Source: Cherax quadricarinatus (taxonomy: Eukaryota > Arthropoda > Malacostraca > Decapoda > Parastacidae). From it: a DNA stretch of 64,000 nucleotides. Shown here in pieces: positions 9,805 through 53,019 of this stretch. Numbering within the stretch: the stretch's first letter is position 1; each line of letters begins with the position of its first letter. Both the position numbers and the translations under genes were made by a program. The stretch spans positions 10,300,410 through 10,364,409 of the forward strand of contig NC_091293.1 of the NCBI RefSeq assembly GCF_038502225.1. The letters are read 5' to 3'. The notes below the pieces were generated by a model. It was not told the DNA's origin. It was given only the letters and a program-made list of their open reading frames with translations, and made no database searches.

Positions 9805-9909
9805 CCTGGGCAGGACTCCCTTCCCTGGTGTGGTGTTCGACAAGAACTTTATCAAGTTCCTGGAGGAAGGACATAGAATGGAACAACCTAAGTTCTCCAC
9901 GCGAGCACT
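9805..9909 (+). CDS. Pvr: Receptor tyrosine kinase exon A (kinase C-lobe), Pvr-like
   Basis: A 105-bp exon preceded by CTCTCTTCACAG and followed by the donor GTAAGT (9910-9915). After one base finishing the previous codon it reads LGRTPFPGVVFDKNF, then IKFLEEGHRMEQPKFSTRA, ending with two bases of a Leu codon. G-x-TPFPGV followed by an LxxGxRMxxP helix is the C-lobe signature (subdomains IX to X) of receptor tyrosine kinases, which phosphorylate tyrosines at the plasma membrane after ligand binding. Exon B completes the Leu codon and continues the domain. Both flanking introns are phase 2. The catalytic loop and DFG exons must lie left of the window. Class III/V (PDGFR/VEGFR, arthropod Pvr) is the best fit. 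FGFR- or Torso-like kinases are less likely alternatives. Confidence 0.85.
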
Positions 9910-10202
9910 GTAAGTTCTCCAGGATAATTAAGTTCATTTCAGCTCTCTAAGTTGTCCATGGCAGCTTTCTAAGTGGTTCATGGCAGCTCTCTAAACCCAT
10001 GACGACTCTTATAAGTTCTTCAGTGAAACTTTTTATAATTTTATCAAGCTCGGGAGTTCAGGTTTCAGCAATTTTAATAAATAAATGTATGACTAGACTG
10101 GAAAAATAATTATAACGACAATAAACTCACGATCTATCGCAGTAAACAACTGTCAACCAACAACATGACAATGGCCCGGGATTCGAACCGTGGGAAGTCA
10201 CA
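9910..10202 (+). other. Start of intron A-B with short imperfect repeats
   Basis: The donor GTAAGTTCTCCA resembles the exon word TAAGTTCTCCA 22 bases upstream. At about 9936-9990 lie two to three copies of a 24-base unit containing CATGGCAGCT and TCTAAG. The segment 10120-10200 holds a minus-strand B-box, listed separately. Confidence 0.6.
10120..10202 (-). mobile_element. Possible tRNA-like SINE remnant
   Basis: On the minus strand 10189-10179 reads GGTTCGAATCC, a perfect pol III B-box, within CCCACGGTTCGAATCCCGGG. No A-box is visible, because the 27-bp array begins where it should be. It may be a partner of the SINE at 11319-11440 in inverted orientation. Confidence 0.4.
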
Positions 10203-11274
10203 GCTGCTGCTGATGCCTCTGCTGTTGTTGCTGCTGCTGATGCCTCTGCTGTTGTTGCTGCTGCTGATGCCTCTGCTGTTGTTGCTGCTGCTGATGCCTC
10301 TGCTGTTGCTACTGCTGCTGATGCCTCTGCTGTTGCTACTGCTGCTGAGGCCTCTGCTGTTGCTACTGCTGCTGATACCTCTGCTGTTGCTACTGCTGCT
10401 GATGCCTCTCCTGTTGCTGCTGCTGCTGAGGCCTCTGCTGTTGCTACTGCTGCTGATGCCTCTGCTGTTGCTACTGCTGCTGATACCTCTGCTGTTGCTG
10501 CTGCTGCTGATGCCTCTGCTGTTGCTACTGCTGCTGAGGCCTCTGCTGTTGCTGCTGCTGATGCCTCTGCTGTTGCTGCTGCTGCTGAGGCCTCTGCTGT
10601 TGCTACTGCTGCTGATGCCTCTGCTGTTGCTACTGCTGCTGATGCCTCTGCTGTTGCTACTGCTGCTGATGCCTCTGCTGTTGCTGCTGCTGCTGATGCC
10701 TCTGCTGTTGTTGCTGCTGCTGAGGCCTCTGCTGTTGCTACTGCTGCTGATGCCTCTGCTGTTGCTGCTGCTGCTGAGGCCTCTGCTGTTGCTGCTGCTG
10801 CTGATGCCTCTGCTGTTGCTGCTGCTGCTGATGCCTCTGCTGTTGCTGCTGCTGCTGATGCCTCTGCTGTTGCTACTGCTGCTGAGGCCTCTGTTGTTGC
10901 TACTGCTGCTGATGCCTCTGCTGTTGCTGCTGCTGCTGATGCCTCTGCTGTTGCTACTGCTGCTGAGGCCTCTGTTGTTGCTACTGCTGCTGATGCCTCT
11001 GCTGCTGATGCCTCTGTTGTTGCTACTGCTGCTGATGCCTCTGCTATTGCTGCTGCTGCTGAGGCCTCTCCTGTTGCTGCTGCTGCTGAGGCCTCTGCTG
11101 TTGCTAATGTTGCTGAGGCCTCTGCTGTTGCTGCTGCTGCTGAGGCCTCTCCTGTTGCTGCTGCTGCTGAGGCCTCTGCTGTTGCTACTGCTGCTGAGGC
11201 CTCTGTTGTTGCTACTGCTGCTGATGCCTCTGCTGTTGCTGCTGAGGCCTCTCCTGTTGCTGCTGCTGCTGATG
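10203..11274. repeat. 27-bp CTG-rich minisatellite, about 40 copies, in intron A-B
   Basis: The unit is close to CTGCTGTTGCTACTGCTG followed by CTGATGCCT. Variants use TTG or CTG and GAGGCCT in place of GATGCCT. Because 27 is divisible by 3, long frames open on both strands (leucine-rich on +, alanine-rich on -). These are artefacts. Confidence 0.95.
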
Positions 11275-11318
11275 CTAATATCACACGTCAGTACTGTATG
11301 TACAATCTTCCTACTGTA

Positions 11319-11440
11319 AGCTTCGAGGCTCAGTGCTATAGCATTGGGCTTCCTGCGTACAAGCACCACGGTTCGAATCCCCGTTCATTCTTCTTATTAT
11401 TGTAGAGCGAGAATGATAATAAATTACTTTCATATCAAAA
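11319..11440 (+). mobile_element. tRNA-derived SINE, 3' simple-repeat tail
   Basis: A pol III A-box-like GAGGCTCAGTGC (11325-11336) and a perfect B-box GGTTCGAATCC (11370-11380) are spaced as in tRNA genes. A body of about 60 bases and a long ATT-repeat tail follow. The cloverleaf stems do not pair well, so this is a SINE or tRNA pseudogene, not a working tRNA. Confidence 0.6.
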
Positions 11441-11442
11441 AC

Positions 11443-11488
<46 letters not shown>

Positions 11489-11491
11489 GTT

Positions 11492-11559
<68 letters not shown>

Positions 11560-11750
11560 CGTTGTTGTTGTTGTTGTTGTAGCAGCAACAGCAGTAGAAG
11601 TAGTGGTAGTATGTAGTAATTGTAGTAGTAGCAATAGTAGTCGTAGTAGTAGCAGTGGTAGTAGTGGTAGTAATATTAGTGGTAGTAGAAGTAGTAGTCG
11701 GGGTGGTAGTAGTAGTAATAGTTGTAGTAGCAGTAGTGTGTGTGTATGTC
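11441..11750. repeat. Trinucleotide block: ATT, then GTT, then AGT repeats
   Basis: Consecutive tracts of ATT (about 11443-11488), GTT (to about 11580) and a degenerate AGT tract (to 11750) follow the SINE. This looks like the expanded, drifting tail of the SINE. It leads directly into the 30-bp array. Confidence 0.9.
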
Positions 11751-14700
11751 TGTCAGGTACAAGGTGGTTATGTTACAGTATGTCAGGTGCAAGGTGGTTA
11801 TGTTACAGTGTGTCAGGTACAAGGTGGTTATGTTACAGTGTATCAGGTACAAGGTGATTATGTTACAGTATGTCAGGTACAAGGTGGTTATGTTACAGTG
11901 TGTCAGGTACAAGGTGATTATGTTACAGTGTGTCAGGTACAAGGTGATTATGTTACAGTGTGTCAGGTACAAGGTGGTTATGTTACAGTGTATCAGGTAC
12001 AAGGTGATTATGTTACAGTATGTCAGGTACAAGGTGGTTATGTTACAGTGTGTCAGGTACAAGGTGGTTATGTTACAGTGTGTCAGGTACAAGGTGATGA
12101 TGTTACAGTGTGGCAGGTACAAGGTGATGATGTTACAGTGTGGCAGGTACAAGGTGGTTATGTTACAGTGTGTCAGGTACAAGGTGATAATGTTACAGTG
12201 TGGCAGGTACAAGGTGGTGATGTTACAGTGTGGCAGGTACAAGGTGATGATGTTATAGTGTATCAGGTACAAGGTGATTATGTTACAGTATGTCAGGTAC
12301 AAGGTGGTTATGTTACAGTGTGTCAGGTACAAGGTGATGATGCTACAGTGTGGCAGGTACAAGGTGGTTATGTTACAGTGTATCAGGTACAAGGTGATTA
12401 TGTTACAGTATGTCAGGTACAAGGTGGTTATGTTACAGTGTGTCAGGTACAAGGTGGTTATGTTACAGTATGTCAGGTACAAGGTGATGATGTTACAGTA
12501 TGTCAGGTACAAGGTGGTTATGTTACAGTATGTCAGGTACAAGGTGGTTATGTTACAGTGTGTCAGGTACAAGGTGGTTATGTTACAGTATGTCAGGTAC
12601 AAGGTGGTTATGTTACAGTGTGTCAGGTACAAGGTGGTTATGTTACAGTGCATCAGGTACAAGGTGATGATGTTACAGTATGTCAGGTACAAGGTGATGA
12701 TGTTACAGTGTGTCAGGTACAGGGTGATGATGTTACAGTGTATCAGGTACAAGGTGATGATGTTACAGTATGTCAGGTACAAGGTGATGATGTTACAGTG
12801 TATCAGGTACAAGGTGATGATGTTACAGTATGTCAGGTACAAGGTGATGATGTTACAGTGTGTCAGGTACAAGGTGATGATGTTACAGTATGTCAGGTAC
12901 AAGGTGATGATGTTACAGTGTGTCAGGTACAAGGTGATGATGTTACAGTATGTCAGGTACAAGGTGATGATGTTACAGTGTGTCAGGTACAAGGTGATGA
13001 TGTTACAGTGTATCAGGTACAAGGTGATGATGTTACAGTATGTCAGGAACAAGGTGATGATGTTACAGTGTATCAGGTACAAGGTGATGATGTTACAGTA
13101 TGTCAGGGACAAGGTGATGATGTTACAGTATGTCAGGTACAAGGTGGTTATGTTACAGTGTGTCAGGTACAAGGTGGTTATGTTACAGTATGTCAGGTAC
13201 AAGGTGATGATGTTACAGTATGTCAGGTACAAGGTGGTTATGTTACAGTATGTCAGGTACAAGGTGGTTATGTTACAGTGTGTCAGGTACAAGGTGGTTA
13301 TGTTACAGTATGTCAGGTACAAGGTGGTTATGTTACAGTGTGTCAGGTACAAGGTGGTTATGTTACAGTGCATCAGGTACAAGGTGATGATGTTACAGTA
13401 TGTCAGGTACAAGGTGATGATGTTACAGTATGTCAGGTACAAGGTGATGATGTTACAGTGTGTCAGGTACAGGGTGATGATGTTACAGTATGTCAGGTAC
13501 AAGGTGATGATGTTACAGTGTATCAGGTACAAGGTGATGATGTTACAGTATGTCAGGTACAAGGTGATGATGTTACAGTGTGTCAGGTACAAGGTGATGA
13601 TGTTACAGTATGTCAGGTACAAGGTGATGATGTTACAGTGTGTCAGGTACAAGGTGATGATGTTACAGTATGTCAGGTACAAGGTGATGATGTTACAGTG
13701 TGTCAGGTACAAGGTGATGATGTTACAGTGTATCAGGTACAAGGTGATGATGTTACAGTATGTCAGGAACAAGGTGATGATGTTACAGTGTATCAGGTAC
13801 AAGGTGATGATGTTACAGTATGTCAGGGACAAGGTGATGATGTTACAGTGTGTCAGGTACAAGGTGATGATGTTACAGTGTGTCAGGTACAAGGTGATGA
13901 TGTTACAGTGTGTCAGGTACAAGGTGGTTATGTTACAGTGTGTCAGGTACAAGGTGGTTATGTTACAGTGTGTCAGGTACAAGGTGGTTATGTTACAGTA
14001 TTTCAGGTACAAGGTGGTTATGTTACAGTGTGTCAGGTACAAGGTGGTTATGTTACAGTGTGTCAGGTACAAGGTGATGATGTTACAGTGTGTCAGGTAC
14101 AAGGTGATGATGTTACAGTGTGTCAGGTACAAGGTGATGATGTTACAGTATGTCAGGTACAAGGTGATGATGTTACAGTATGTCAGGTACAAGGTGATGA
14201 TGTTACAGTATGTCAGGTACAAGGTGATGATGTTACAGTGTATCAGGTACAAGGTAGTTATGTTACAATGTGTCAGGTACAAGGTGGTTATGTTACAGTG
14301 TGTCAGGTACAAGGTGGTTATGTTACAGTGTGTCAGGTACAAGGTGGTTATGTTACAGTGTGTCAGGTACAAGGTGGTTATGTCACAGTGTGTCAGGTAC
14401 AAGGGGATGATGTTACAGTTTGTCAGGTACAAGGTGATGATGTTACAGTATGTCAGGTACAAGGTGGTTATGTTACAGTGTATCAGGAACAAGGTGGTTA
14501 TGTTACAGTGTATCAGGTACAAGGTGATGATGTTACAGTGTGCCAATTACAAGGTGGTTATGTTACAGTATGTCAGGTACAAGGTGGTTATGTTACAGTG
14601 TATCAGGTACAAGGTGATGATGTTACAGTGTGTCAGGTACAAGGTGGTTATGTTACAGTGTGTCAGGTACAAGGTGGTTATGTTACAGTGTGTCAGGTAC

Positions 14701-16849
14701 AAGGTGGTTGTGTTACAGTGTATCATGTACAAGGTGATGATGTTACAGTGTGCCAGGTACAAGGTGGTTATGTTACAGTGTGTCAGGTACAAGGTGATGA
14801 TGTTACAGTGTGTCAGGTACAAGGTGGTTATATTACAGTGTGTCAGGTACAAGGTGATGATGTTACAGTGTTTCAGGTACAAGGTGATGATGTTACAGTG
14901 TGTCAGGTACAAGGTGGTTATGTTACAGTGTGTCAGGTACAAGGTGATGATGTTACAGTGTGCCAGGTACAAGGTGGTTATGTTACAGTGTGTCAGGTAC
15001 AAGGTGATGATGTTACAGTGTGTCAGGTACAAGGTGGTTATGTTACAGTGTGTCAGGTACAAGGTGATGATGTTACAGTGTGTCAGGTACAAGGTGGTTA
15101 TGTTACAGTGTGTCAGGTACAAGGTGGTTATGTTACAGTATTTCAGGTACAAGGTGGTTATGTTACAGTGTGTCAGGTACAAGGTGGTTATGTTACAGTG
15201 TGTCAGGTACAAGGTGATGATGTTACAGTGTGTCAGGTACAAGGTGATGATGTTACAGTGTGTCAGGTACAAGGTGATGATGTTACAGTGTGTCAGGTAC
15301 AAGGTGGTTATGTTACAGTGTGTCAGGTACAAGGTGGTTATGTTACAGTATGTCAGGTACAAGGTGATTATGTTACGGTATGTCAGGTACAAGGTGGTTA
15401 TGTTATAGTGTATATGTCAGGTAAAGGTGATTATGTTACAGTATGTCAGGTACAAGGTGATTATGTTACAGTACGTCAGGTACAAGATGATTATGTTACA
15501 GTATGTCAGGTACAAGGTGGTTATGTTACAGTGTATATGTCAAGTACAAGGTGATTATGTTACAGTATGTCAGGTACAAGGTGATTATGTTACAGTATGT
15601 CAGGTACAAGGTGGTTATGTTACAGTATGTCAGGTACAAGGTGATTATGTTACAGTATGTCAGGTACAAGGTGGTTATGTTACAGTATGTCAGGTACAAG
15701 GTGATTATGTTACAGTATGTCAGGTACAAGGTGTTTATGTTACAGTGTGTCAGGTACAAGGTGATTATGTTACAGTGTGTCAGGTACAAGGTGATTATGT
15801 TACAGTATGTCAGGTACAAGGTGATTATGTTACAGTATGTCAGGTACAAAGTGGTTATGTTACAGTGTATATGTCAGGTACAAGGTGATTATGTTACAGT
15901 ATGTCAGGTACAAGGTGATTATGTTACAGTATGTCAGGTACAAGGTGATTATGTTACAGTATGTCAGGTACAAGGTAGTTATGTTACAGTATGTCACGTA
16001 CAAGGTGATTATGTTACAGTATGTCAGGTACAAGGTGGTTATGTTGCAGTATGTCAGGTACAAGGTGATTATGTTACAATATGTCAGGTACAAGGTGGTT
16101 ATGTTACAGTATGTCAGGTACAAGGTGATTATGTTAAAGTATGCCAGGTACAAGGTGATTATGTTAAAGTATGTCAGGTACAAGGTGGTTATGTTACAGT
16201 ATGTCAGGTACAAGGTGATTATGTTAAAGTATGTCATGTACAAGGTGATTATGTTACAGTGTATATGTCAGGTACAAGGTGGTTATGTTACAGTGTATAT
16301 GTCAGGTACAAGGTGATTATGTTACAATGTGTCAGGTTCAAGGTGATTATGTTACAGTATGTCAGGTACAAGGTGATTATGTTACAGTATGTCAGGTACA
16401 AGGTGATTATGTTACAGTATGTCAGGTACAAGGTGGTTATGTTACAGTGTGTCAGGTACAAGGTGATTATGTTACAGTATGTCAGGTACAAGGTGGTTAT
16501 GTTACAGTATGTCAGGTACAAGGTGATTATGTTACAGTATGTCAGGTACAAGGTGATTATGTTACAGTATGTCAGGTACAAGGTGATTATGTTACAGTAT
16601 GTCAGGTACAAGGTGATTATGTTACAGTATGTCAGGTACAAGGTGGTTATGTTACAGTGTGTCAGGTACAAGGTGGTTATGTTACAGTGTGTCAGGTACA
16701 AGGTGGTTATGTTACAGTGTGTCAGGTACAAGGTGGTTATGTTACAGTGTGTCAGGTACAAGGTGGTTATGTTACAGTATGTCAGGTACAAGGTGGTTAT
16801 GTTACAGTGTGTCAGGTACAAGGTGGTTATGTTACAGTGTATATGTCAG
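11751..16849 (+). repeat. 30-bp minisatellite, about 170 copies, ending at the exon B acceptor
   Basis: The unit is GTACAAGGTGATGATGTTAC plus AGTGTGTCAG, with GTGGTTATG or GTGATTATG as common variants. The array runs without a break into the acceptor ATATGTCAG of exon B, and the exon itself starts GTACAAGGTGATGATG. Each unit therefore repeats the acceptor AG and about the first 16 exon bases. From about 15411 occasional 34-bp units (TGTATATGTCAG) shift the reading phase. A 720-bp higher-order duplication is visible (12460-13140 against 13180-13860). The 1,299- and 1,044-residue open frames here are repeat artefacts. Confidence 0.96.
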
Positions 16850-16955
16850 GTACAAGGTGATGATGGAGTGCTGGTCTACATACCCACATGAGAGACCTTC
16901 TTTCACCCAGCTGGAAGCAACACTGGGACACTTCCTCACCCAGGCTGACAGGCAG
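16850..16955 (+). CDS. Pvr: Receptor tyrosine kinase exon B (end of kinase domain)
   Basis: A 106-bp exon. The acceptor is CAG at 16847-16849 and the donor is GTAAGT at 16956-16961. Its first base completes the Leu codon begun in exon A. It then reads YKVMMECWSTYPHERPSFTQ and LEATLGHFLTQADRQ, ending in phase 0. The CW(x6)RP(S/T)F motif is the invariant subdomain XI of tyrosine kinases, whose arginine stabilises the C-lobe, so this exon closes the catalytic domain. The TLGHFL helix resembles the end of PDGFR/VEGFR-class kinases. The 30-bp minisatellite abuts the acceptor directly, so choice of the true AG among about 170 copies is an open question. Frame continuity with exons A and C supports this boundary. 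Confidence 0.9.
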
Positions 16956-22134: not shown

Positions 22135-22275
22135 ACTTTGCCAGGACTGTGATACACAGATAACCCGCACATAGTAGACTCAAACTTATGACCACATTTA
22201 AGTCCGTCTTGGACCATTAACGAGTCTCTCTGTGACTATTTAATGGTACAAGTCGGACCGAAACGTCGTGATAAC
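22135..22275. mobile_element. Penelope-like repeat end, inverted pair
   Basis: The left arm AAGTCCGTCTTGGACCATTAA (about 22201-22220) is an imperfect inverse of TTAATGGTACAAGTCGGACC (about 22241-22260), with an 18-20-base loop. The right arm continues GAAACGTCGTGATAACC. Its core GGACCGAAACGTCGT resembles common decapod retroelement termini that I recall as Penelope-like. The 18-bp satellite starts exactly here. Confidence 0.5.
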
Positions 22276-25200
22276 CTTCAGCCTCGTGATAACCTTCAGC
22301 CTCGTGATAACCTTCAGCCTCGTGATAACCTTCAGCCTCGTGATAACCTTCAGCCTCGTGATAACCTTCAGCCTCGTGATAACCTTCAGCCTCGTGGTAA
22401 CCTTCAGCCTCGTGGTAACCTTCAGCCTCGTGATAACCTTCAGCCTCGTGATAACCTTCAGCCTCGTGGTAACCTTCAGCCTCGTGATAACCTTCAGCCT
22501 CGTGATAACCTTCAGCCTCGTGATAACCTTCAGCCTCGTGATAACCTTCAGCCTCGTGATAACCTTCAGCCTCGTGATAACCTTCAGCCTCGTGGTAACC
22601 TTCAGCCTCGTGATAACCTTCAGCCTCGTGGTAACCTTCAGCCTCGTGATAACCTTCAGCCTCGTGATAACCTTCAGCCTCGTGATAACCTTCAGCCTCG
22701 TGATAACCTTCAGCCTCGTGATAACCTTCAGCCTCGTGATAACCTTCAGCCTCGTGGTAACCTTCAGCCTCGTGATAACCTTCAGCCTCGTGGTAACCTT
22801 CAGCCTCGTGATAACCTTCAGCCTCGTGGTAACCTTCAGCCTCGTGATAACCTTCAGCCTCGTGATAACCTTCAGCCTCGTGGTAACCTTCAGCCTCGTG
22901 ATAACCTTCAGCCTCGTGAAACCTTCAGCCTCGTGAACCTTCAGCCTCGTGATACCTTCAGCCTCGTGATAACCTTCAGCCTCGTGGTAACCTTCAGCCT
23001 CGTGGTAACCTTCAGCCTCGTGATAACCTTCAGCCTCGTGATAACCTTCAGCCTCGTGGTAACCTTCAGCCTCGTGATAACCTTCAGCCTCGTGATAACC
23101 TTCAGCCTCGTGGTAACCTTCAGCCTCGTGATAACCTTCAGCCTCGTGATAACCTTCAGCCTCGTGGTAACCTTCAGCCTCGTGATAACCTTCAGCCTCG
23201 TGGTAACCTTCAGCCTCGTGATAACCTTCAGCCTCGTGATAACCTTCAGCCTCGTGATAACCTTCAGCCTCGTGGTAACCTTCAGCCTCGTGATAACCTT
23301 CAGCCTCGTGATAACCTTCAGCCTCGTGATAACCTTCAGCCTCGTGATAACCTTCAGCCTCGTGGTAACCTTCAGCCTCGTGATAACCTTCAGCCTCGTG
23401 ATAACCTTCAGCCTCGTGGTAACCTTCAGCCTCGTGATAACCTTCAGCCTCGTGATAACCTTCAGCCTCGTGATAACCTTCAGCCTCGTGGTAACCTTCA
23501 GCCTCGTGATAACCTTCAGCCTCGTGATAACCTTCAGCCTCGTGATAACCTTCAGCCTCGTGATAACCTTCAGCCTCGTGATAACCTTCAGCCTCGTGAT
23601 AACCTTCAGCCTCGTGATAACCTTCAGCCTCGTGATAACCTTCAGCCTCGTGATAACCTTCAGCCTCGTGATAACCTTCAGCCTCGTGATAACCTTCAGC
23701 CTCGTGATAACCTTCAGCCTCGTGGTAACCTTCAGCCTCGTGATAACCTTCAGCCTCGTGATAACCTTCAGCCTCGTGATAACCTTCAGCCTCGTGGTAA
23801 CCTTCAGCCTCGTGATAACCTTCAGCCTCGTGATAACCTTCAGCCTCGTGATAACCTTCAGCCTCGTGGTAACCTTCAGCCTCGTGATAACCTTCAGCCT
23901 CGTGATAACCTTCAGCCTCGTGATAACCTTCAGCCTCGTGATAACCTTCAGCCTCGTGATAACCTTCAGCCTCGTGATAACCTTCAGCCTCGTGATAACC
24001 TTCAGCCTCGTGGTAACCTTCAGCCTCGTGATAACCTTCAGCCTCGTGATAACCTTCAGCCTCGTGATAACCTTCAGCCTCGTGATAACCTTCAGCCTCG
24101 TGATAACCTTCAGCCTCGTGATAACCTTCAGCCTCGTGATAACCTTCAGCCTCGTGGTAACCTTCAGCCTCGTGATAACCTTCAGCCTCGTGATAACCTT
24201 CAGCCTCGTGATAACCTTCAGCCTCGTGATAACCTTCAGCCTCGTGATAACCTTCAGCCTCGTGATAACCTTCAGCCTCGTGATAACCTTCAGCCTCGTG
24301 ATAACCTTCAGCCTCGTGATAACCTTCAGCCTCGTGATAACCTTCAGCCTCGTGGTAACCTTCAGCCTCGTGGTAACCTTCAGCCTCGTGGTAACCTTCA
24401 GCCTCGTGGTAACCTTCAGCCTCGTGATAACCTTCAGCCTCGTGGTAACCTTCAGCCTCGTGGTAACCTTCAGCCTCGTGATAACCTTCAGCCTCGTGAT
24501 AACCTTCAGCCTCGTGATAACCTTCAGCCTCGTGATAACCTTCAGCCTCGTGATAACCTTCAGCCTCGTGATAACCTTCAGCCTCGTGATAACCTTCAGC
24601 CTCGTGATAACCTTCAGCCTCGTGGTAACCTTCAGCCTCGTGATAACCTTCAGACTCGTGATAACCTTCAGCCTCGTGATAACCTTCAGCCTCGTGATAA
24701 CCTTCAGCCTCGTGATAACCTTCAGCCTCGTGATAACCTTCAGCCTCGTGGTAACCTTCAGCCTCGTGATAACCTTCAGCCTCGTGATAACCTTCAGCCT
24801 CGTGGTAACCTTCAGCCTCGTGATAACCTTCAGCCTCGTGATAACCTTCAGCCTCGTGATAACCTTCAGCCTCGTGATAACCTTCAGCCTCGTGGTAACC
24901 TTCAGCCTCGTGATAACCTTCAGCCTCGTGATAACCTTCAGCCTCGTGGTAACCTTCAGCCTCGTGATAACCTTCAGCCTCGTGATAACCTTCAGCCTCG
25001 TGATAACCTTCAGCCTCGTGGTAACCTTCAGCCTCGTGATAACCTTCAGCCTCGTGATAACCTTCAGCCTCGTGATAACCTTCAGCCTCGTGATAACCTT
25101 CAGCCTCGTGATAACCTTCAGCCTCGTGATAACCTTCAGCCTCGTGATAACCTTCAGCCTCGTGATAACCTTCAGCCTCGTGGTAACCTTCAGCCTCGTG

Positions 25201-26412
25201 ATAACCTTCAGCCTCGTGATAACCTTCAGCCTCGTGATAACCTTCAGCCTCGTGATAACCTTCAGCCTCGTGGTAACCTTCAGCCTCGTGGTAACCTTCA
25301 GCCTCGTGGTAACCTTCAGCCTCGTGATAACCTTCAGCCCTCGTGATAACCTTCAGCCTCGTGATAACCTTCAGCCTCGTGGTAACCTTCAGCCTCGTGA
25401 TAACCTTCAGCCTCGTGGTAACCTTCAGCCCTCGTGATAACCTTCAGCCTCGTGATAACCTTCAGCCTCGTGATAACCTTCAGCCTCGTGATAACCTTCA
25501 GCCTCGTGATAACCTTCAGCCTCGTGATAACCTTCAGCCTCGTGGTAACCTTCAGCCTCGTGATAACCTTCAGCCTCGTGATAACCTTCAGCCTCGTGAT
25601 AACCTTCAGCCTCGTGATAACCTTCAGCCTCGTGGTAACCTTCAGCCTCGTGGTAACCTTCAGCCTCGTGGTAACCTTCAGCCTCGTGATAACCTTCAGC
25701 CCTCGTGATAACCTTCAGCCTCGTGATAACCTTCAGCCTCGTGGTAACCTTCAGCCTCGTGATAACCTTCAGCCTCGTGGTAACCTTCAGCCCTCGTGAT
25801 AACCTTCAGCCTCGTGATAACCTTCAGCCTCGTGATAACCTTCAGCCTCGTGATAACCTTCAGCCTCGTGATAACCTTCAGCCTCGTGATAACCTTCAGC
25901 CTCGTGATAACCTTCAGCCTCGTGATAACCTTCAGCCCTCGTGATAACCTTCAGCCTCGTGATAACCTTCAGCCTCGTGGTAACCTTCAGCCTCGTGATA
26001 ACCTTCAGCCTCGTGGTAACCTTCAGCCCTCGTGATAACCTTCAGCCTCGTGATAACCTTCAGCCTCGTGATAACCTTCAGCCTCGTGATAACCTTCAGC
26101 CTCGTGATAACCTTCAGCCTCGTGATAACCTTCAGCCTCGTGGTAACCTTCAGCCTCGTGATAACCTTCAGCCTCGTGATAACCTTCAGCCTCGTGATAA
26201 CCTTCAGCCTCGTGATAACCTTCAGCCTCGTGGTAACCTTCAGCCTCGTGGTAACCTTCAGCCTCGTGGTAACCTTCAGCCTCGTGATAACCTTCAGCCC
26301 TCGTGATAACCTTCAGCCTCGTGATAACCTTCAGCCTCGTGGTAACCTTCAGCCTCGTGATAACCTTCAGCCTCGTGATAACCTTCAGCCTCGTGATAAC
26401 CTTCAGCCTCCT
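22262..26412. repeat. 18-bp minisatellite, about 230 copies
   Basis: The unit is CTTCAGCCTCGTGATAAC, with a GTGGTAAC variant. The right third carries a 19-base variant with CAGCCCTCG at about 25338, 25430, 25700, 25792, 25937, 26028 and 26299, spaced by 91, 145 or 271 bases, so blocks were duplicated. Period 18 gives long open frames with a seven-residue and a four-residue motif; these are artefacts. Confidence 0.97.
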
Positions 26413-28054: not shown

Positions 28055-28781
28055 ACGTTGTGCAAGAAAGGTATAAAATACCGACAATATGAAAGTTAAG
28101 ACACATGTGCAACATCTGGATATCTTTATTGTAGACGTTTCGCCATCCAGTGGCTTTATCAATACAGATTCTAGGACATAATAGGAAGACAGTAGAACTA
28201 TATACAAAAGATGAGGTAATCAGTCCCTCGGCCTTGGAGTTAGTGTTCACAGCATCGTGGTGGAGGAGAGTCTGGAGCAAAGGCAAGAAGACTGGCGTTT
28301 TTATATGCGTCAGTGGAAGGGACGGGCAGCAGACGAGGGCAGTCACTGGTAGGCGGGATTCCCCAGTGGAAGTATAAAAACGCCAGTCTTCTTGCCTTTG
28401 CTCCAGACTCTCCTCCACCACGATGCTGTGAACACTAACTCCAAGGACTGATTACCTCATCTTTTGTATATTGTTCTACTGTCTTCCTATTATGTCCTAG
28501 AATCTGTATTGATAAAGCCACTGGATGGCGAAACGTCTACAATAAAGATATCCAGATGTTGCACATGTGTCTTAACTTTCATATTGTCGGTATTTTATAC
28601 CTTTCTTGCACAACTTGTCAGACACTGCAACATCATGGAATCTTGGTTCAGAGGACATCTACAAGACCTTCTTCACGGCTGCTACAACTAACCCATCTCT
28701 TTGGGAAGGACCTACTTCCACTGGGGAATCCCGCCTACCAGTGACTGCCCTCGTCTGCTGCCCGTCCCTTCCACTGACGCA

Positions 28782-28788
28782 TATAAAA
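28782..28788 (+). promoter_or_regulatory. TATA-box-like TATAAAA in the Penelope-like repeat
   Basis: TATAAAA occurs at the same place in copy 3 (28782-28788) and copy 2 (28373-28379). It lies about 160 bases before the GAAACGTC core and could serve the element's own transcription. The evidence is sequence match only. Confidence 0.35.
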
Positions 28789-28924
28789 ACGCCAGTCTTC
28801 TTGCCTTTGCTCCAGACTCTCCTCCACCACGATGCTGTGAACACTAACTCCAAGGCCGAGGGACTGATTACCTCATCTTTTGTATATAGTTCTACTGTCT
28901 TCCTATTATGTCCTAGAATCTGTA

Positions 28925-28953
28925 TTGATAAAGCCACTGGATGGCGAAACGTC
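28925..28953 (+). ncRNA. Hammerhead-ribozyme-like core, degenerate
   Basis: TTGATAAAGCCACTGGATGG followed by CGAAACGTC has the order of a hammerhead core: a CUGANGA-like box (two mismatches), a short GCC/GGC stem II, GAAA and then GUC. It is repeated at about 28509-28537 and, inverted, at 28134-28162. Penelope-like elements are known to carry hammerheads. The box mismatches make activity of these copies doubtful. Confidence 0.35.
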
Positions 28954-28989: not shown

Positions 28990-30425
28990 CACTTAACTTT
29001 CACGTTGATCCTCCTCCCATGTTACTCACTGTGGTTTCTGTCACTTAACTTTCACGTTGATCCTCCTCCCATGTTACTCACTGTGGTCTCCTCCCATGTT
29101 ACTCACTGTGGTTTCTGTCACTTAACTTTCACGTTGATCCTCCTCCCATGTTACTCACTGTGGTTTCTGTCACTTAACTTTCACGTTGATCCTCCTCCCA
29201 TGTTACTCACTGTGGTTTCTGTCACTTAACTTTCACGTTGATCCTCCTCCCATGTTACTCACTGTGGTTTCTGTCATTTAACTTTCACGTTGATCCTCCT
29301 CCCATGTTACTCACTGTGGTTTCTGTCACTTAACTTTCACGTTGATCCGCCTCCCATGTTACTCACTGTGGTTTCTGTCATTTAACTTTCACGTTGATCT
29401 GCCTCCCATGTTACTCACTGTGGTTTCTGTCACTTAACTTTCACGTTGATCCGCCTCCCATGTTACTCACTGTGGTTTCTGTCATTTAACTTTCACGTTG
29501 ATCCTCCTCCCATGTTACTCACTGTGGTTTCTGTCACTTAACTTTCACGTTGATCCTCCTCCCATGTTACTCACTGTGGTTTCTGTCACTTAACTTTCAC
29601 GTTGATCCTCCTCCCATGTTACTCACTGTGGTTTCTGTCACTTAACTTTCACGTTGATCCTCCTCCCATGTTACTCACTGTGGTTTCTGTCATTTAACTT
29701 TCACGTTGATCCTCCTCCCATGTTACTCACTGTGGTTTCTGTCACTTAACTTTCACGTTGATCCGCCTCCCATGTTACTCACTGTGGTTTCTGTCATTTA
29801 ACTTTCACGTTGATCTGCCTCCCATGTTACTCACTGTGGTTTCTGTCACTTAACTTTCACGTTGATCCGCCTCCCATGTTACTCACTGTGGTTTCTGTCA
29901 TTTAACTTTCACGTTGATCCTCCTCCCATGTTACTCACTGTGGTTTCTGTCACTTAACTTTCACGTTGATCCTCCTCCCATGTTACTCACTGTGGTTTCT
30001 GTCACTTAACTTTCACGTTGATCCTCCTCCCATGTTACTCACTGTGGTTTCTGTCATTTAACTTTCACGTTGATCCTCCTCCCATGTTACTCACTGTGGT
30101 TTCTGTCACTTAACTTTCACGTTGATCCGCCTCCCATGTTACTCACTGTGGTTTCTGTCATTTAACTTTCACGTTGATCTGCCTCCCATGTTACTCACTG
30201 TGGTTTCTGTCACTTAACTTTCACGTTGATCCGCCTCCCATGTTACTCACTGTGGTTTCTGTCATTTAACTTTCACGTTGATCCTCCTCCCATGTTACTC
30301 ACTGTGGTTTCTGTCACTTAACTTTCACGTTGATCCTCCTCCCATGTTACTCACTGTGGTTTCTGTCACTTAACTTTCACGTTGATCCTCCTCCCATGTT
30401 ACTCACTGTGGTTTCTGTCACTTAA
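28990..30425. repeat. 52-bp minisatellite, right part, about 28 copies, ending at the exon C acceptor
   Basis: Same unit as 26576-28054. The variants GATCCGCC, GATCTGCC and GTCATTTAAC recur at 29347, 29763 and 30127, that is, every 8 and then 7 units. The last unit reads TTCTGTCACTTAACTTGCAG, so the array supplies the branch-like CTTAAC and the pyrimidines of the exon C splice site. Confidence 0.96.
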
Positions 30426-30432
30426 CTTGCAG

Positions 30433-30582
30433 TACTTTAAGGAGCTTCAGGAAGGATACGAACGAAAGACGGAGAAAGGGAAGGATGCAGAGGAGGAGGA
30501 GGAGACGCCTGCCTATCTCAGCATGGTGCGCGCCCCGGACTACAACGCTATCGTTCAGAGTGCCCAAGAAAATCAGGTTTAG
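30433..30582 (+). CDS. Pvr: Receptor tyrosine kinase exon C (C-terminal tail, stop)
   Basis: The last coding exon. The acceptor is CACTTAACTTGCAG (AG at 30431-30432), phase 0 from exon B, with the stop TAG at 30580-30582. It encodes 49 residues: YFKELQEGYERKTEKGKD, an acidic run AEEEEE, then TPAYLSMVRAPDYNAIVQ and SAQENQV. YLSM fits YxxM, the binding motif for the p85 SH2 domain of PI3-kinase when phosphorylated, a feature of PDGFR-class tails. The second tyrosine (PDYNAIV) is a further possible docking site. The tail is cytoplasmic and short for this class. The exon follows the kinase end without extra sequence, and the frame matches exon B exactly. Confidence 0.85.
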   Translation, partial: YFKELQEGYERKTEKGKDAEEEEETPAYLSMVRAPDYNAIVQSAQENQV

Positions 30583-30616: not shown

Positions 30617-30915
30617 TCACCAGGACGCAAGACCAGGAACCACCGGGACACGCAAGACCAGGGACCACCAGGACACGCAAGACCATGGACCACCAGGACA
30701 CGCAAGACCAGGGACCACCAGGACACGCAAGACCAGGGACCACCAGGACGCGCATGACCAGGGACCACCAGGACACACAAAACCAGGGACCACCAGGACA
30801 CACAAGACCAGGAACCACCAGGACACACAAGACGAGGGACCCCCAGGACAAGCAAGACCAGGGACCACCAGGACACACTAGACCAGAGACCACCAGGACA
30901 CAGAAGACCAAGGAC
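30617..30915. repeat. 25-bp minisatellite, about 12 copies, in the 3' UTR
   Basis: The unit is GGGACCACCAGGACACGCAA plus GACCA. Copies drift to ACACAAGAC at the right end. It begins about 35 bases after the stop codon. Confidence 0.93.
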
Positions 30916-43921: not shown

Positions 43922-46390
43922 GTGGTGACAGCAGAGTCAACGGCATTGTGAGCAACTTCAGGGTGGAGGGGTCAACACCATCGGTCGACACCAGTCAACA
44001 TCATCCGTCGTCATCCAACGCACCTGCTGGCCTAAAGAGTTATCTGTTACTCCCAGTGTCTTGACGGGACCCGAGATAGATCTTCGTCCTAGATTTTTCC
44101 CACAAAATCTGGACATAGGCGTCACGGCGTCATCTCCAGCCTTAGCAGTCACATGTTCACCTCATCACCCTCTCTACAGCCCTTAAACACTCTCCAACAC
44201 CATTCTCCTGCCTCCTACAGCGTCCCTATGCCCTTCTCAGCTACAAGAAGTAGAGGTGAGGTCGTTTAGTGTGTTGGCTTCGTGTGGCTCCACGCATGAC
44301 CACGAGGCAGCTCTGGGGTTGGTTGATACCCTAGGCAGCGTGTAAACGCACCAGCCTCCTCTACAGCCTTCTCTGCTATGCAACGACGTCCATCTCGCCG
44401 TCCATGTGTGTTGTGTTCTTCCCAGTTTCCTCCAAGAAGTTCTACCTGGCTTAACCACGTGGGAACCCAGTTGGCTTAGCCCCTAAGCCAGCTCAGTTCA
44501 GCCCCCACGCCTCTACAGCAGCTCGTGACTCATCATTGTGTCTACAACTACTCAGCGTCTACGTATCTCCAGCCAGTGCAGTTTTTTTTTTTTGTGTTGC
44601 CCAGTTAAATTTTTTTTTCTTTCCCTTGCTGTTACATTCCCAGTTCATCACCAGTTCTGTTTTCCCCAGTGATTTGTTACAGTAAAATTTACTCGTCCCA
44701 GTTCATAGTTTCACTTAAGCTTGTTTTTAGCACGTTCGAGTAGTGCAGTAAATGTTTTGTTCTCCGTGTGCTGAAGCCGCAGTCAGTCAGTGTGCCCAGA
44801 CACGCTTGCCAGTGTAAACAAACCATGCACAGTTGTGGATCACGCTGAGTTAGCCACGTTTCTCTCATATCTTATATCTCCACAGAGTAACCCCGGTCTT
44901 TCCTGTTCTTCCCAAGTCCATTCTGATAATTTTTCCTACGACATTGAAGCCCCATAGCAGTGTACAAATGCTACGAGGCGTGTAGTGTTACTAGAGCATC
45001 ACTGAAAGTTTCAGGACCTGCAGCACCCGTACCTTCGTCCATCTCCTGCACTCAAAGTTAAGTAAACAGTGACTTACCTAGCATTTCCTAATATTTTGTG
45101 ACATTATTTAACTGTCCTGCACCAATACAGTTACAGTTACTGAAGCCATAGTTCAGTAAATTGTTCAGTTTGTCATCAGTGCACATTTTGCCACTTACCT
45201 ACAGCTTCTTAAATTTTGTACATTTATTTTTGCACTCCAACATTTTAAATTCCAGTATTTTATTCTGCATCTTGCACCTCAGTTATTGATTTAAATTGTT
45301 AAGTGTTAACCATTTATACAATTTACCTCTCACACATAGTTTGCTAGTAATTCCTGTGTGCTGTTAATTTTGTTAGTTGCACCTGCAAGTTAGTCACAGA
45401 TTGTTGACACCCCTGCACGGTTTTGTTTGTTAGTGTGTTTTTTTTTTTTTCTTTAATAAGTGTAATCTTCAAGTACTTAAGTATTAGTTTATTCTACCTG
45501 CAGTGATACAATCTGTGCCTAGCCCATTACACTTTTCTCCTGTTTCCCCATTTATTTGCTTTACATATATTCTATGTTTTATCTGTGAGTATTCACCAAT
45601 GTGCATTACTTTTTGCTATTTTGTATACCCAAGTCATTGAGTGCATTTTTGGGAACCTGCTTATTTACCATTAATTACCAAAATTACTTGTGAAGTTCAT
45701 TAATTTTGACCTAGAGATTGTGATATTTTTGTTTTTGCCAGTGTACACCCTGCTAACACCAGTGTACACCCTGCTAACACCAGTTAACCTTTGCCCTATT
45801 CTTGAATTTAATAATTTGCATTTATAATAATTTTATTTTATGTGCAATATAGCATTTCTTGATACAGTGTATTTTTTTTTTCTGTGATTTTTGGCACTAT
45901 CCCATACTCTGATATCTTTGCTGTGCCAACTTCCCTTTGTGCAAGTGAATTACCTTTTTTTGCATTCCAATTTGCAACTGCCAGCACCTGCAATCTTTTT
46001 AACACTGTGCTTGCAGCACAGTTTAGTGTTGTGTAGTCCCTGATTTATTTTAAATTTTGTGCAATTTTTGCTACCACTGTTTACAGTTCAACTCCTTTTC
46101 ATAAATTTTGTTGCCAGACTCCTGGTGAAATTATTGACCACCCCTTAGCTTCATTTTGTGCACTTCCCTGTAGTTCATTCACTTGCATACATCTCTTATT
46201 TTGTGTTTCAGAGTGTACCACTTTTTTTTTGTTGTTTTGCTTAAATTATTTCCATCACTAAGCAGTTTACCTAGTACCGTGGTGCTGTGTTCTCTCTGAC
46301 TCTGTGTTGAATTGTAGCCAGTGCATACCATTTCTTGCTCTGACCTGTTTACCCTCTTCGTGACCTGCTTGCGTTTGAACAATTGACGGC
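43922..46390 (+). other. Gypsy-1 leader with decayed primer binding site
   Basis: TGGTGACAGCAG at 43923 is a mutated form of the tRNA-Leu-complementary site that is intact in Gypsy-2. The rest is non-coding, T-rich, and shared with Gypsy-2 (60331-62767), including a 23-base direct duplication of GTGTACACCCTGCTAACACC near 45742. Confidence 0.75.
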
Positions 46391-47764
46391 ATGACTAAGA
46401 CACGCAGTGGCCGTACCATTAGTCCAGATTCTGCTGATGCTAGCAATGGTACCTCAGCCAGCGTGAACACGCGGCAGGGCATCGAAGCCCCCGTGACATT
46501 TGGTCAACTTGTGGCTCAAGTCTCGACCACCAGTGGGCCGGCTACTCGTCCATACCCGACCCTTCTTTTTGACGGTCGTTCAAATAGGTTAGAGCCATGG
46601 CTGCAGTCAGTCGAGACGACTGTTAAGGCTCTATTTGATAGTCCCACGGATACACAGTACATTCGTGCTGCTGTTGCAGCAGTGGATCTCACCCAGGATG
46701 ATATAGGTGCCTTTGTGCAGCTCAATCGAGTTTGCAAGATTCAGTCTTGGGACGAACTTAAGGAGGAATTTAGGAGTTATTTTCGGCGTAGTCGCCAACG
46801 CCATTACATTGACATCGTTACCAGCGTCTTGGCCGAATGTCAATACCGGCACAAAAGCCCCCTGGCTTGCATTTGCCGGTTTGAGCAAGCCGCCAAAGAC
46901 TTTACTGATGCCATCAGCTCCACTACGTGGGTGAATGGTGACAACTGTATTAAAGCTGAAGACATCATCCCCATGCTGGCTGTAGGCATCATGCGGAGAG
47001 ATACCCCCCCTAACCTCCGAGGTGCCATTGATGCGCTAGGACTCGGCCCTCAGCACGACGTCCTGGGTGCATATGATGCCATTGACGTGATCAAGCCGCC
47101 TGCCGAGCAAGGCAAGGTTTGTCGCTTTGCGGATGATCCTATACCCATCCTTCCAGCGCCGTCCACGGTGACCCCGCGGTCGCAGCCGGAAGTCACTTTT
47201 GCCGCTGCTGTCAGCCAGCCTGCCCACAAAGTTTCTAACCCCAGTCCCACTAACACTCGCCCAAGTAAAAATATTGACCACAGTAACAACAGTCAGTCTC
47301 ATACAAAAAAGCAGTCATCGACCTCCTGGACCAAGGCACAACGTCGCCAGCAAACACCACCTCCAACCTCACCTCCTAAGCGCGTGGTGACTTGTTTCAA
47401 CTGTGGGAAATGCGGGCACTACCGATCGGAGTGTTACAAACCTAAGTCCCTGCAAGGTAACCATCACCGTCCCCACGCTCAGTATCAAAGTAACCATAAC
47501 TGTCCCCACGCTCAGTATCAAAGTAACCATAACCGGCCCCACACTCAGTATCAAGGTAACCGTCACCGTCCCCATGCTCAGTCTCTCGAGGAAGTCTGTA
47601 TGTACCACAATACTTCCAGTCATACCTCCCATGAGTGTCGCAAGCTGCGAAGTATGCTGTCAGCTGAGTGGAGCAAGCAGTCGTGGCGCAATGCACGTGC
47701 TCGTAGAAGCCCTTCCACTAGTTCGGGGGAAGAGGCGCATCCGCAAAACCAGCGAAAGACATAG
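46391..47764 (+). CDS. gag: Gypsy-1 Gag (capsid-nucleocapsid), 457 residues
   Basis: Gag forms the retrotransposon particle and binds its RNA. The frame is intact from an ATG after the long leader. Residues about 60-200 form the helical capsid-like region (PTLLFDGRSNRLEPWLQSVE, DELKEEFRSYF). A proline/serine/threonine linker follows. A CCHC zinc knuckle CFNCGKCGHYRSEC starts at residue 335, and a second C-x2-H-x4-H-x4-C knuckle, CMYHNTSSHTSHEC, starts at residue 403. Between them are four tandem copies of an 11-residue basic motif like NHHRPHAQYQS; Gypsy-2 Gag has three. It ends in two consecutive stops, TAG TAA. The long leader argues for internal initiation or splicing, which I cannot see directly. 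Confidence 0.92.
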   Translation: MTKTRSGRTISPDSADASNGTSASVNTRQGIEAPVTFGQLVAQVSTTSGPATRPYPTLLFDGRSNRLEPWLQSVETTVKALFDSPTDTQYIRAAVAAVDLTQDDIGAFVQLNRVCKIQSWDELKEEFRSYFRRSRQRHYIDIVTSVLAECQYRHKSPLACICRFEQAAKDFTDAISSTTWVNGDNCIKAEDIIPMLAVGIMRRDTPPNLRGAIDALGLGPQHDVLGAYDAIDVIKPPAEQGKVCRFADDPIPILPAPSTVTPRSQPEVTFAAAVSQPAHKVSNPSPTNTRPSKNIDHSNNSQSHTKKQSSTSWTKAQRRQQTPPPTSPPKRVVTCFNCGKCGHYRSECYKPKSLQGNHHRPHAQYQSNHNCPHAQYQSNHNRPHTQYQGNRHRPHAQSLEEVCMYHNTSSHTSHECRKLRSMLSAEWSKQSWRNARARRSPSTSSGEEAHPQNQRKT

Positions 47765-47803
47765 TAACCCTGTCAGAGTCGCTGTATTCCGTCCCTGTTC
47801 GCA

Positions 47804-50800
47804 ATGCATTCGCCGCCCTGGGCAGTGATACGCTTGCCGACAGTGAGGAAACAGTGTCTTGATGTTGTTGCCGAGACTCGTACCGTACCTTCCAGGTCGA
47901 GCCTCGTCAACAAGCGTCGAGCCTCAAGCAGCTGTGACTCCGGGGATTTCGTCGGCCTGTCATGCCTTCATGTTCGGTATGACAACCCGTGTGGACCGCT
48001 CATCAAGTCCACTGTCCACCATAAGCCTGTCCAACTTTTCCTAGATACAGGTTCGGTGGTTAACATTGTCCGCTCCACTCTTTTCCGAGACATTGGCCTT
48101 CACACGGCCATGTTGACAGAGCCGTCTGTCATCCAGACCTTGAGAGGAGTCTCAGGTAATCCGCTGACGGCTCGTGGTCGTACAACGTTAGAATTTGCGG
48201 TCCAGGGTCAAAAGCTGTCCGCAAAATTCTTGGTCGTAGATAGTATTGTTTTCCATGGTGACCTGCTCATAGGGTTCAAAACCATGGCAGACCTTAGGAT
48301 CTGCTTAGATCCAGCTGAGTGGAAAGCAGAATTCAACGGAGTGGATGTGCCCTTCTGGGGCGTGCACTTAGGATCCACTACGTGCTACTCTGTCTCAGAG
48401 TATGCACAGTGCCTGGAATCGTTGGAAACCGGTGGTTTCCATAGCACATTCTCCCCGGGGTCGGTCTCTTGTCCTGATCGACCTCGTAGTAGAGCACGTT
48501 GCCCGTCACCTCCTGGCCATCAGCGCTTAGTTACCAGTGAAACCCAGTCTGGGGACGCCCAGTCTAACCTTCACTCTAACTCTGACACTGTTGTAGAGAA
48601 CAGCAGTTGTCATGCCGCAGTATCCCTGTCGGCAGGCGACTGTCTGACTCGTGTCATGGCATCAGCGAGCAGAGTTACTGCTTGTACAATGTATGACGTC
48701 ACTTTGTCAGCTAACTCGCTCACTCCTGTTATGGTGTACGTGAGCAGAGCTTTTGAAGGAGACCATGTGCTGGTTGACAACGACACGTGCCGAGTCAAGG
48801 GCTTCTCCCTTGAACCATCCTTGCACACAGTGCAACGTGGTAAGTTGCAAGTCCTTGTTGTCAACATGCACAGTCGAGAATTTCCCCTGCAGAAGAATAC
48901 CTCACTTGTCGACCTGGTCAGATTCCCTCTCCCAGTGAGAGTGGAGGGTGAAGCCCCAGCTGACTTCCTTGTGAGTGCAGTTCTCCAAGGCGAGTCTGCT
49001 GCTGACTCTTCCAACACCCGGCCAGTGCAGGAAGATGATCTAGCTTTGACAGACTATCCTGAAAAGGTCCCAAAACTTCTCCAGGTTCTCAATCGTGCAC
49101 ATTCTGCAGTCGCAATAGATGGTGAGTCAATGGGTTTGACCCCACTGATCTCTCACCGTATTCCACTTGACAAAGGTACTAAACCCACTTATGTACCTGC
49201 GTATCGCCTGCCACATGCGCAAAGAGTCTTCGCCGAAGAACTCATTACACGGATGCTCCGTGATGGAGTTATTGAGGAGTCCACTTCCCCGTGGAATGCT
49301 CCCCTTATTCTGGTCCCCAAGAAGGACGGAACCTGGCGCCCTGTTATCGATTACAGGAAACTGAATGCATGTACGATCCCAGACCGCTTTCCATTGCCAG
49401 TTCTGAACGACCTGTTGCAGAACATCGGCGATAATAAGGTCTTTTCAACTCTTGATCTTCTTCAAGGGTTCTGGCAGATCCCCCTCGATGATGAGAGCAA
49501 AGAGTTGACAGCTTTCTCTACTCCAACTGGTCATTACCAGTTCAGGAGGATGCCCTTCGGCTTGCGCGGAAGCCCAATCACGTTTAGTCGTTTGATGACA
49601 ATTTTCCGTACCCACCTAGGTGGCACGCTCATGGTCTACCTGGATGATCTCATAGTCATGTCGCAAGATGTCCCGTCACATCTTGAGAAACTTGACAGGG
49701 TATTGGACAGACTAGCTCAGGCAAACCTTAAGGTAAAGCTCTCCAAATGTCATTTCCTCTGGAAGGAAATAAAATTTCTGGGTCACGTAGTGACTCAGAA
49801 TGGCATAAAGATGGACGAGTCTAAAATCTCGGCCGTGCAGAAATTCCCCAGACCCATGACGGCGGATGCAGTCCGGTCCTTCATAGGCCTGGCGGGTTTC
49901 TACCGCACCTCTTTCACAGGTTTCTCCACCATTGCTGCACCCCTGACACGCTTACTCAAGAAGGATGCCCCTTTTGAGTGGACGTGTGATCAGGAACGAG
50001 CTTTCGTCATTCTTAAGAACAAGTTAACATCAGCCCCAACCCTTAGATTCCCTGATTTCACCAAGGCATTTACCTTGACGACTGATGCCAGCAAAGTTGG
50101 CATCGGTGCAGTCTTGTCACAGGAATCTAATGGTAAGCAACAGCCTATTGCCTATGCTAGCCGTGTCCTTACTAAAGCGGAAGTCAATTATTCAGTGACA
50201 GAGCTAGAAGCTTTAGCCATTGTATGGGCCCTGAGTCATTTTCGGGATATCATCTATCATTATCCTATCAAGATTTACACAGATCATTTACCTTTATTGG
50301 CCCTTTTTGCGAATAAGAACCTCTCGGGAAAGCATGCTCGGTGGTCGCTCACGTTCAATGACTACAACCCTGAAATTTGCTATGTCCCAGGCAAGCAAAA
50401 TGTTGTAGCTGATGCCCTGTCGAGGCATATAACATTCGTGAGTGTCGGCAACTCGTTCTCTGTTGAGGATCTCGAGAGAGCCCAACGACAGGACCCTGTG
50501 TGGTCTCCAGTCCTTCGTTTCCTGACCAAGGAGGACGTTGACTTACAGGTCAAGTCTCCCGTTCCACTGAAGGATTTAGTGGTCAACCAAGGAGTACTGT
50601 GCCGTGTTGCACAGCTGGTGGACCCCGGCAGAGCCATATACCAACTGGTGATACCAGAGTCCATGATACCAGCTACTCTTAGGTTGATCCACGACGTCCC
50701 AGGTGTAGCGCACCCCGGGAAGGACCGCAGTATCAAACAGGCACGAATGAAATATTTCTGGCCTAAGATGGCAGCGGACATTGCCAAGCATGTACACCAG

Positions 50801-52613: not shown

Positions 52614-53019
52614 TAGTATGCACAAACTTGTCACAAAATTTGTGGGTCCTTACCGTGTCCTACGACAGCTCCATGGCAATAAGTTCGAGGCGAGCGAGAT
52701 TGCTACGGGAACTATCAAGGAAGCCCACCTTGATCACATGAAGTATGTGGACCATGTGCAGGCCGAAGCAGAGCTGGAGTTGCGTGCGTTGCAACGCCAC
52801 AATCAGACCAATGCTAGGGACAACCCATCTATCCCGTCTCCCACTACTACTGGTATGGAAGACGGCCCAGTAAGGCTCCATACTTATGGCCTGCGACCCA
52901 GGACAACAGTACATTTCTGTGACATTGACGTACCTACTGACTTGTCTGACTCCTACGCTAGTTATGCTAATTGTTTGCTTGCAGAAATGGGTATAAATGC
53001 ACACACATTGTATAGCTAG
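52614..53019 (+). pseudogene. pol: Gypsy-1 Pol, C-terminal end after the LINE-C insertion
   Basis: The continuation of pol beyond the insertion. KLVTKFVGPYRVLRQL at its start is the GPY/F module at the C-terminus of Ty3/Gypsy integrases, which contacts the substrate DNA and helps multimerisation. About 110 acidic and low-complexity residues follow, to a stop at 53017-53019. It is open over its whole length, so the only major lesion of pol is the inserted LINE. Because the module is detached from the catalytic core, the element is not autonomous in this state. No chromodomain is visible. Confidence 0.88.

Follow-up and report, generated by a model that had tools for sequence, protein, structure and literature searches.

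Organization of the kinase gene

A stretch of 64,000 nucleotides from the crustacean Cherax quadricarinatus (RefSeq assembly GCF_038502225.1, contig NC_091293.1, positions 10,300,410 to 10,364,409 of the forward strand), referred to here as the window and numbered from its first letter, was found to carry exons of a receptor tyrosine kinase gene in which the intron before one kinase exon, exon B, ends in 169 tandem units spanning its own junction with that exon. The assembly amounts to 3.95 Gb, and the contig that carries the window to 84 Mb. The genome has 22 matches to PF11630, the anti-LPS factor family characteristic of decapod crustaceans and horseshoe crabs, which points to an arthropod, probably a crustacean. 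A preliminary description, made from the letters alone, had placed a 30-bp minisatellite of about 170 copies before this kinase exon and had read it as an amplified 3' splice junction; the observation was confirmed, the array consisting of 169 complete units and a terminal partial copy. The features of the locus are as follows.

9805–9909, + strand: exon A, receptor tyrosine kinase peptide LGRTPFPGVVF...STRAL, with a match to VEGFR2 and the donor ACT/GTAAGT (slash, splice junction)
9910–16849, + strand: intron A/B, roughly 6.9 kb long and in phase 2, containing a 27-bp array, trinucleotide runs and the 30-bp array
11757–16849, + strand: 30-bp 'mirage' array with 169 complete units, in which 16 nt from the start of exon B are joined to 14 (or 18) nt from the end of the intron
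16816–16849, + strand: last complete unit, of the 34-bp type, ending in TTACAGTGTATATGTCAG, the genuine intron end
16850–16865, + strand: terminal partial array copy, which forms the 16-nt start of exon B
16850–16955, + strand: exon B, 106 bp, YKVMMECWSTYPHERPSFTQLEATLGHFLTQADRQ, followed by the perfect donor CAG/GTAAGT
30433–30582, + strand: exon C, the last coding exon, YFKELQEGYERK...SAQENQV, with the stop codon TAG at 30580–30582

When joined, exons A, B and C gave a single open frame, all on the + strand. Across the A/B junction the peptide of A and B aligned gaplessly with the C-lobe of the VEGFR2 kinase (phmmer, E 2.5e-14), and the three exons together matched Pfam PF07714 (E 2e-11), showing C-lobe homology and covering the end of the kinase domain. 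In the PDB matches of A and B, VEGFR1/2 accounted for the first 16 of the best 60 of 644, the FGFRs coming next, from 3e-13. From these 70 residues, on which the class is based, we take the host gene to encode a receptor tyrosine kinase of the PDGF/VEGF-receptor class. The open frame and the gapless alignment also place exon B where it had been put in the preliminary description. Within intron A/B, the 27-bp array occupies positions 10203–11272 and the trinucleotide runs positions 11443–11737.

The array repeats the intron–exon junction

Tandem Repeats Finder reported one 30-bp array at 11751–16865, with 169.7 copies and 93% matches. Splitting at the junction yielded 169 units, of which 163 measured 30 bp, five 34 bp and one 33 bp, each comprising the last 14–18 nt of the intron and the first 16 nt of exon B; the exonic part reads GTACAAGGTG(A/G)T(T/G)ATG and the intronic part TTACAGTGTGTCAG or similar. 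Exon B begins at 16850 with GTACAAGGTGATGATG, preceded by ...TATATGTCAG, and this start is itself the last partial copy, the satellite thus abutting the exon without any intervening sequence, as had been claimed. On alignment of the junction (25 intronic and 16 exonic bases) with the array, 40 of the 41 bases proved common to both (score 38.5), whereas 100 random 50-mers from window positions 44000–53000, matched against no more than the initial 1.2 kb of the array, reached a maximum of 10.0. The earlier statement that every unit has the same junction was too strong, as only 53 of the 169 units are identical to the exon at all 16 exonic bases and 158 carry CAG/GT at the junction, the remainder being variable (TATCAG, GGCAG, GGACAAGG and others); 160 units match at 14 bases or more.

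The array is not uniform along its length. Units of 33 and 34 bp, with the longer intron end TGTATATGTCA, are confined to the final 1.5 kb, the last of them abutting the exon, and a 377-bp block is repeated exactly at an offset of 720 bp (24 units), which suggests turnover inside the array. The 168 pieces of a split (a few of them split wrongly) fell into 49 distinct forms, ordered in blocks. Assembling so large an array is difficult, and the single exact block repeat might be taken as a sign that a short true array was inflated in the assembly; we give this very little probability, since neither the number and order of the forms nor the restriction of the longer units to one end is expected from simple duplication of reads, and a shorter array would still be the same phenomenon.

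On the + strand of the assembly, the 17-mer GTCAGGTACAAGGTGAT from the unit has 65 occurrences, of which 64 fall in the array and one on contig C34, so that the array appears to be locus-specific as far as one 17-mer shows. The C34 site, considered as an outside copy of the array, was taken as a chance match because the backward control pattern of the 17-mer likewise gave one match; no array of the 30-bp unit was present around it, and a 37-bp array starts about 50 nt further on.

Origin of the array

A paralogue on contig C33 was compared with the host gene. Its joined exon pieces, LGQNPYPGIDFDENF...STYGLYRIMLECWNSDPLERPSF...AEKQ, give 70 residues like those of A and B, aligned residue for residue, its counterpart of exon B is likewise 106 bp long, and its intron, with the junction sequences TATGGCTT/GTGAGT...TATATTAG/ATACCG, lies at the same codon and in the same phase. 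This intron measures 325 bp, and a tandem-repeat scan at the default score found no array in it. Since the paralogue has the same intron without the array, intron and exon are most likely older than the array. The 16 exonic bases of the unit, moreover, encode conserved kinase sequence that aligns gaplessly with VEGFR2; together with the shared intron, this argues that the array grew from the junction and not the reverse. Amplification of the junction is thus a well-supported origin, and growth out of an old intron–exon boundary the most likely course of events as judged from one paralogue.

The opposite order of events, in which a satellite was inserted at the exon or slid up to it and provided the splice site, or in which the intron was itself gained through an AGGT tandem duplication, is extremely improbable in our view. 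Intron gain would require that no intron was present before the duplication, whereas the one paralogue compared carries it at an identical codon and in an identical phase, free of the array. In addition, the 16 exonic nt encode conserved kinase residues, and the exact 17-mer of the unit occurs only once beyond the array. Beyond exon B of the paralogue, a 33-bp array of 3.8 copies was noted.

Acceptor and donor sites in the repeat units

Splice sites were scored with a simple position matrix of generic frequencies, not those of the host species; this applies to all bit scores given here. The real acceptor of exon B scored 3.99 bits, compared with 7.6 for exon A and 8.3 for exon C. The array acceptors (n = 153) had a mean of 3.29 and a maximum of 6.08 bits, and 58 of them scored no lower than the real one, in agreement with the proposal that the units offer acceptors. 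The real site is thus not singled out by its acceptor sequence. The donor of exon B, CAG/GTAAGT, reached 12.8 bits versus 8.1 for the top GT within the array, and because it is this downstream donor, and not the acceptor, that distinguishes the real site, recognition by exon definition is favoured. The locus thereby presents a natural experiment on acceptor choice, with about 160 near-identical acceptors in one intron, only the last of which stands beside a real exon, so that the choice cannot be explained by acceptor sequence alone.

The preliminary description had also pointed to CAG/GTACAA as a weak donor-like match in each unit. This motif, which abuts the junction, is indeed weak at 4.3 bits; what had been missed is that most units also carry a better donor 7 nt downstream, AAG/GTGATT, AAG/GTGATG or AAG/GTGGTT, with 5.1–7.7 bits. 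Acceptors directly abutting GT, as in the 158 units with CAG/GT, could in principle serve as ratchet points for recursive splicing, exon A being joined to any copy and then spliced onward to exon B, by which errors would repair themselves; the second donor-like motif might assist, and recursive sites with juxtaposed acceptor and donor have been reported from flies. Such use, however, appears very unlikely at this locus. The juxtaposed donor is far from strong when set against the 12.8 bits of the exon B donor, the start of exon B carries the same GTACAA and would also be removed, and steps of 30 nt between neighbouring units would be too short for an intron.

On translation, 163 of the 163 junction-equivalent CAG/G decoys ran into a stop that precedes the B/C junction by over 55 nt, and a stricter decoy pattern gave premature stops in 162 of 162. 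Under the rule usual for mammals, stops in this position would mark the RNA for decay. The last complete unit, of 34 bp, shifts the frame of the junction-equivalent decoys immediately upstream of it. The added repeat peptides that had been predicted for use of earlier acceptors are thus not to be expected from these decoys, all of which end in premature stops; of the 502 AGs that the array contains, 15 alone would lead to an open insert.

The uniformly non-productive outcome of the junction-equivalent decoys raises the question of dosage control, in which decoys would divert transcripts to non-productive RNA and repeat number would set the receptor level, comparable to the human ABCA7 minisatellite, a variable number tandem repeat (VNTR) that includes a donor, in which retention of a unit alters the reading frame and an aberrant isoform increases with expanded alleles (PMC5954066). 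We consider this unlikely, since the uniform outcome stems from a few frame-shifting 34-bp units and needs no selection, and since the 15 other AGs remain in frame.

A structure that might loop out the array was not indicated, as the predicted RNA fold of the last units together with exon B was less stable than that of shuffled sequences (z +2.2; 197 of 200 shuffles folded at least as well). Branch-point spacing, which differs between 34- and 30-bp units, was considered as a discriminator of the last unit and dropped, because five other units share the longer end (four of 34 bp and one of 33 bp).

A probable explanation: a tolerated mirage minisatellite

The explanation that we hold to be probable is that of a 'mirage' minisatellite which grew from an old junction and is tolerated through exon definition by the donor of exon B. 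The 3' end of the intron and the first 16 bases of the exon would have been tandemly duplicated, and the copies, as read from the sequence, would have grown to 169 and been reshuffled through further duplication within the array. The exon side has stayed anchored, only the last copy continuing into the coding exon. As to the tolerance, we infer that the last copy is chosen because it is the sole one followed, some 100 nt downstream, by a perfect donor, exon B being recognised as a unit. Splicing to an earlier equivalent copy would, as predicted by translation, end in a premature stop and yield no intact receptor, and the RNA would presumably decay. A positive function of the array would not be required.

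Several points weigh against this explanation. The use of the last acceptor was deduced from homology and frame, and the matrix behind the scores consists of generic frequencies and not of those of this species. Exon definition predicts that the final few units, being close enough to the donor as well, would compete, and nothing in the sequence shows how these would be silenced. The array contains 34 AAG/GTGATT sites at 7.67 bits, more than the 7.28 bits of the real donor of exon A, so that array units would in principle be definable as exons. The 15 AGs that keep the frame, which end TACAG or ACAAG and all lie in the last 222 bp, would insert up to 74 residues. Finally, the exon-identical units, those with GATGATG, are found mostly in the middle of the array and none of them among the last 50 of the split; as the units nearest to the exon are not the most exon-like, a direct line from the exon to the neighbouring unit must have been overwritten. 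This position, the late 33- and 34-bp units and the repeat of the 377-bp block together imply reshuffling of the array after its formation.

Comparison with known boundary-spanning repeats

The Adh mirage was reportedly described first by Canestro et al. in 2002, and the original work on the IFI6 minisatellite is said to be that of Turri in 1995. In amphioxus, mirage minisatellites are known from Adh3, the globin genes BflGb6 and BflGb9, and TnC; the Adh3 units measure 10–72 bp, regular splicing is reported to be undisturbed and length to be unstable, and BflGb6 has six and three copies of 150–160 bp at its acceptor in two haplotypes (PMC3087553). A second paper again describes the Adh and TnC mirages and adds similar repeats in PGBD5 (PMC3902484). 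The array described here resembles the amphioxus mirages in having boundary-spanning repeats, AG/GT in many copies (158 of 169), a terminal copy that is the authentic junction, and internal homogenization, each unit combining intronic and exonic bases. It differs from them in its location in a receptor kinase gene of a crustacean, and from BflGb6 in its 169 copies.

Other systems share single traits with it. The intron-18 VNTR of human ABCA7, with 25-bp units in up to approximately 427 copies, is likewise a minisatellite that incorporates an authentic splice site; it differs in lying on the donor side, its repeat starting with the donor GT, in being intronic and length-variable, and in being backed by RNA evidence (PMC5954066). 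In IFI6 (6-16), too, repeat units supply splice sites, but these are multiple donors, two downstream units serving in the production of normal mRNA species (PMC4526556). In potato RdRp, a duplication including the branch site, acceptor and exon start also crosses the intron/exon boundary, and created a new intron, whereas the copies described here sit inside an old one (PMC4974935). Human internal tandem repeats at exon–intron boundaries are comparable as minisatellites at exon edges; they have units of about 30 bp, lie in segmental duplications and in some cases form new introns, but average only about four units (PMC2812944). Judged by titles and the beginnings of abstracts, no arthropod mirage was found among the open-licence papers listed. 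The principle is therefore already known; what the present array contributes is the number of copies, the group of the host and the likely recurrence within a single genome. Mirage minisatellites would extend from lancelets to a crustacean, with a copy number far above those of the globin examples.

Arrays at exon edges elsewhere in the genome

Recurrence was assessed at 45 loci (L014–L058), which comprised all 15 of 15 matches of one kinase search and the best 30 of 149 of another. Ten loci were omitted, namely L014 and L015 (exons C and B of the host gene) and L020, L023–L027, L053 and L055 (judged to be either a second exon from one gene or probable copies), and L016, the host exon A, was retained and counted as a miss. 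Around the 35 remaining kinase matches, 6 of 42 arrays were no further than 20 nt from a match edge, compared with 1.14 expected (2000 placements, P 0.0005), in a post hoc test for which the six cases had been seen beforehand, the 20-nt limit was set then, and match edges stand in for exon edges. The six are found at L017, L021, L028, L045 and L046 (twice), and 30 of the 35 loci are without such an array. At L021 and L028 nearness only was recorded, by eye.

At L045 (contig C98), a donor-side array at 1690–1834 consists of 21-bp units that repeat GATGTTTGGTGAGTTGAT, the terminal sequence of a presumably FAK-like kinase exon; across the junction the repeated sequence is GATGTTTG/GTGAGTTGAT, the donor being placed as GATGTTTG/GTGAGT. 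L017 (C37:6708572-6711742) has a 53-bp array of 15.6 copies at 1656–2483 in the last exon of another tyrosine kinase, with units that repeat the last codons, the stop codon and the start of the presumed 3' untranslated region (UTR); this edge is thus that of a stop codon and not of a splice site. At L046 (C66), arrays at 1424–1505 and 1709–2163 touch the acceptor and the donor of one kinase exon, which we take to be RET-like and whose donor, by reading of the exon end, stands at the intron position corresponding to A/B. The donor array of L046 was not counted as boundary-spanning, as the shared sequence begins 2 nt inside the intron. The host gene has a further array next to exon C.

29088–30428, + strand: 52-bp array, 25.8 copies, ending 4 nt before exon C, with a unit that includes the intron end but lacks its AG

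Among the 25 bases at the very end of the intron before exon C, 24 could be aligned with this array and 23 were identical. Outside the edge test, 8 regions from among 51 Cpn60_TCP1 chaperonin matches were examined with the same procedure; in them, one array, 16-bp and GT-rich, starts 3 nt after a match edge, and another ends 23 nt before one. These cases together suggest that exon edges have been a recurrent source of minisatellites in this genome. A bolder proposal, that exon edges of all kinds (acceptor, donor and stop codon) are a habitual birthplace of minisatellites and that the largest one found has become a length-variable ladder of non-productive acceptors tuning intact receptor mRNA by copy number, seems to us distinctly unlikely.

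Other repeats in and near the window

A 25-bp array of 12 copies (30618–30915) begins 36 nt past the stop codon of exon C, in the presumed 3' UTR. In intron B/C, an 18-bp array of 230 copies (22266–26410) has one frame open for 1081 codons, mostly (RDNLQP)n, and between two blocks of the 52-bp array (28056–28952), forward and reverse open frames share the peptide TFRHPVALSIQ..., which suggests an inverted repeat. Upstream of the window, the tandem-repeat scan of L011–L013 (C2:10260500-10290499) showed very long arrays of 28-, 29- and 36-bp units, the 28-bp array filling all 10 kb of L012 and extending into both neighbours. Two near-identical open frames in opposite orientation, TIDGMTKTRSGRTISPD... 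at 46379–47761 (+) and TIDVMTKTRSGRTISPD... at 58993–60342 (−), are probably two copies of a mobile element.

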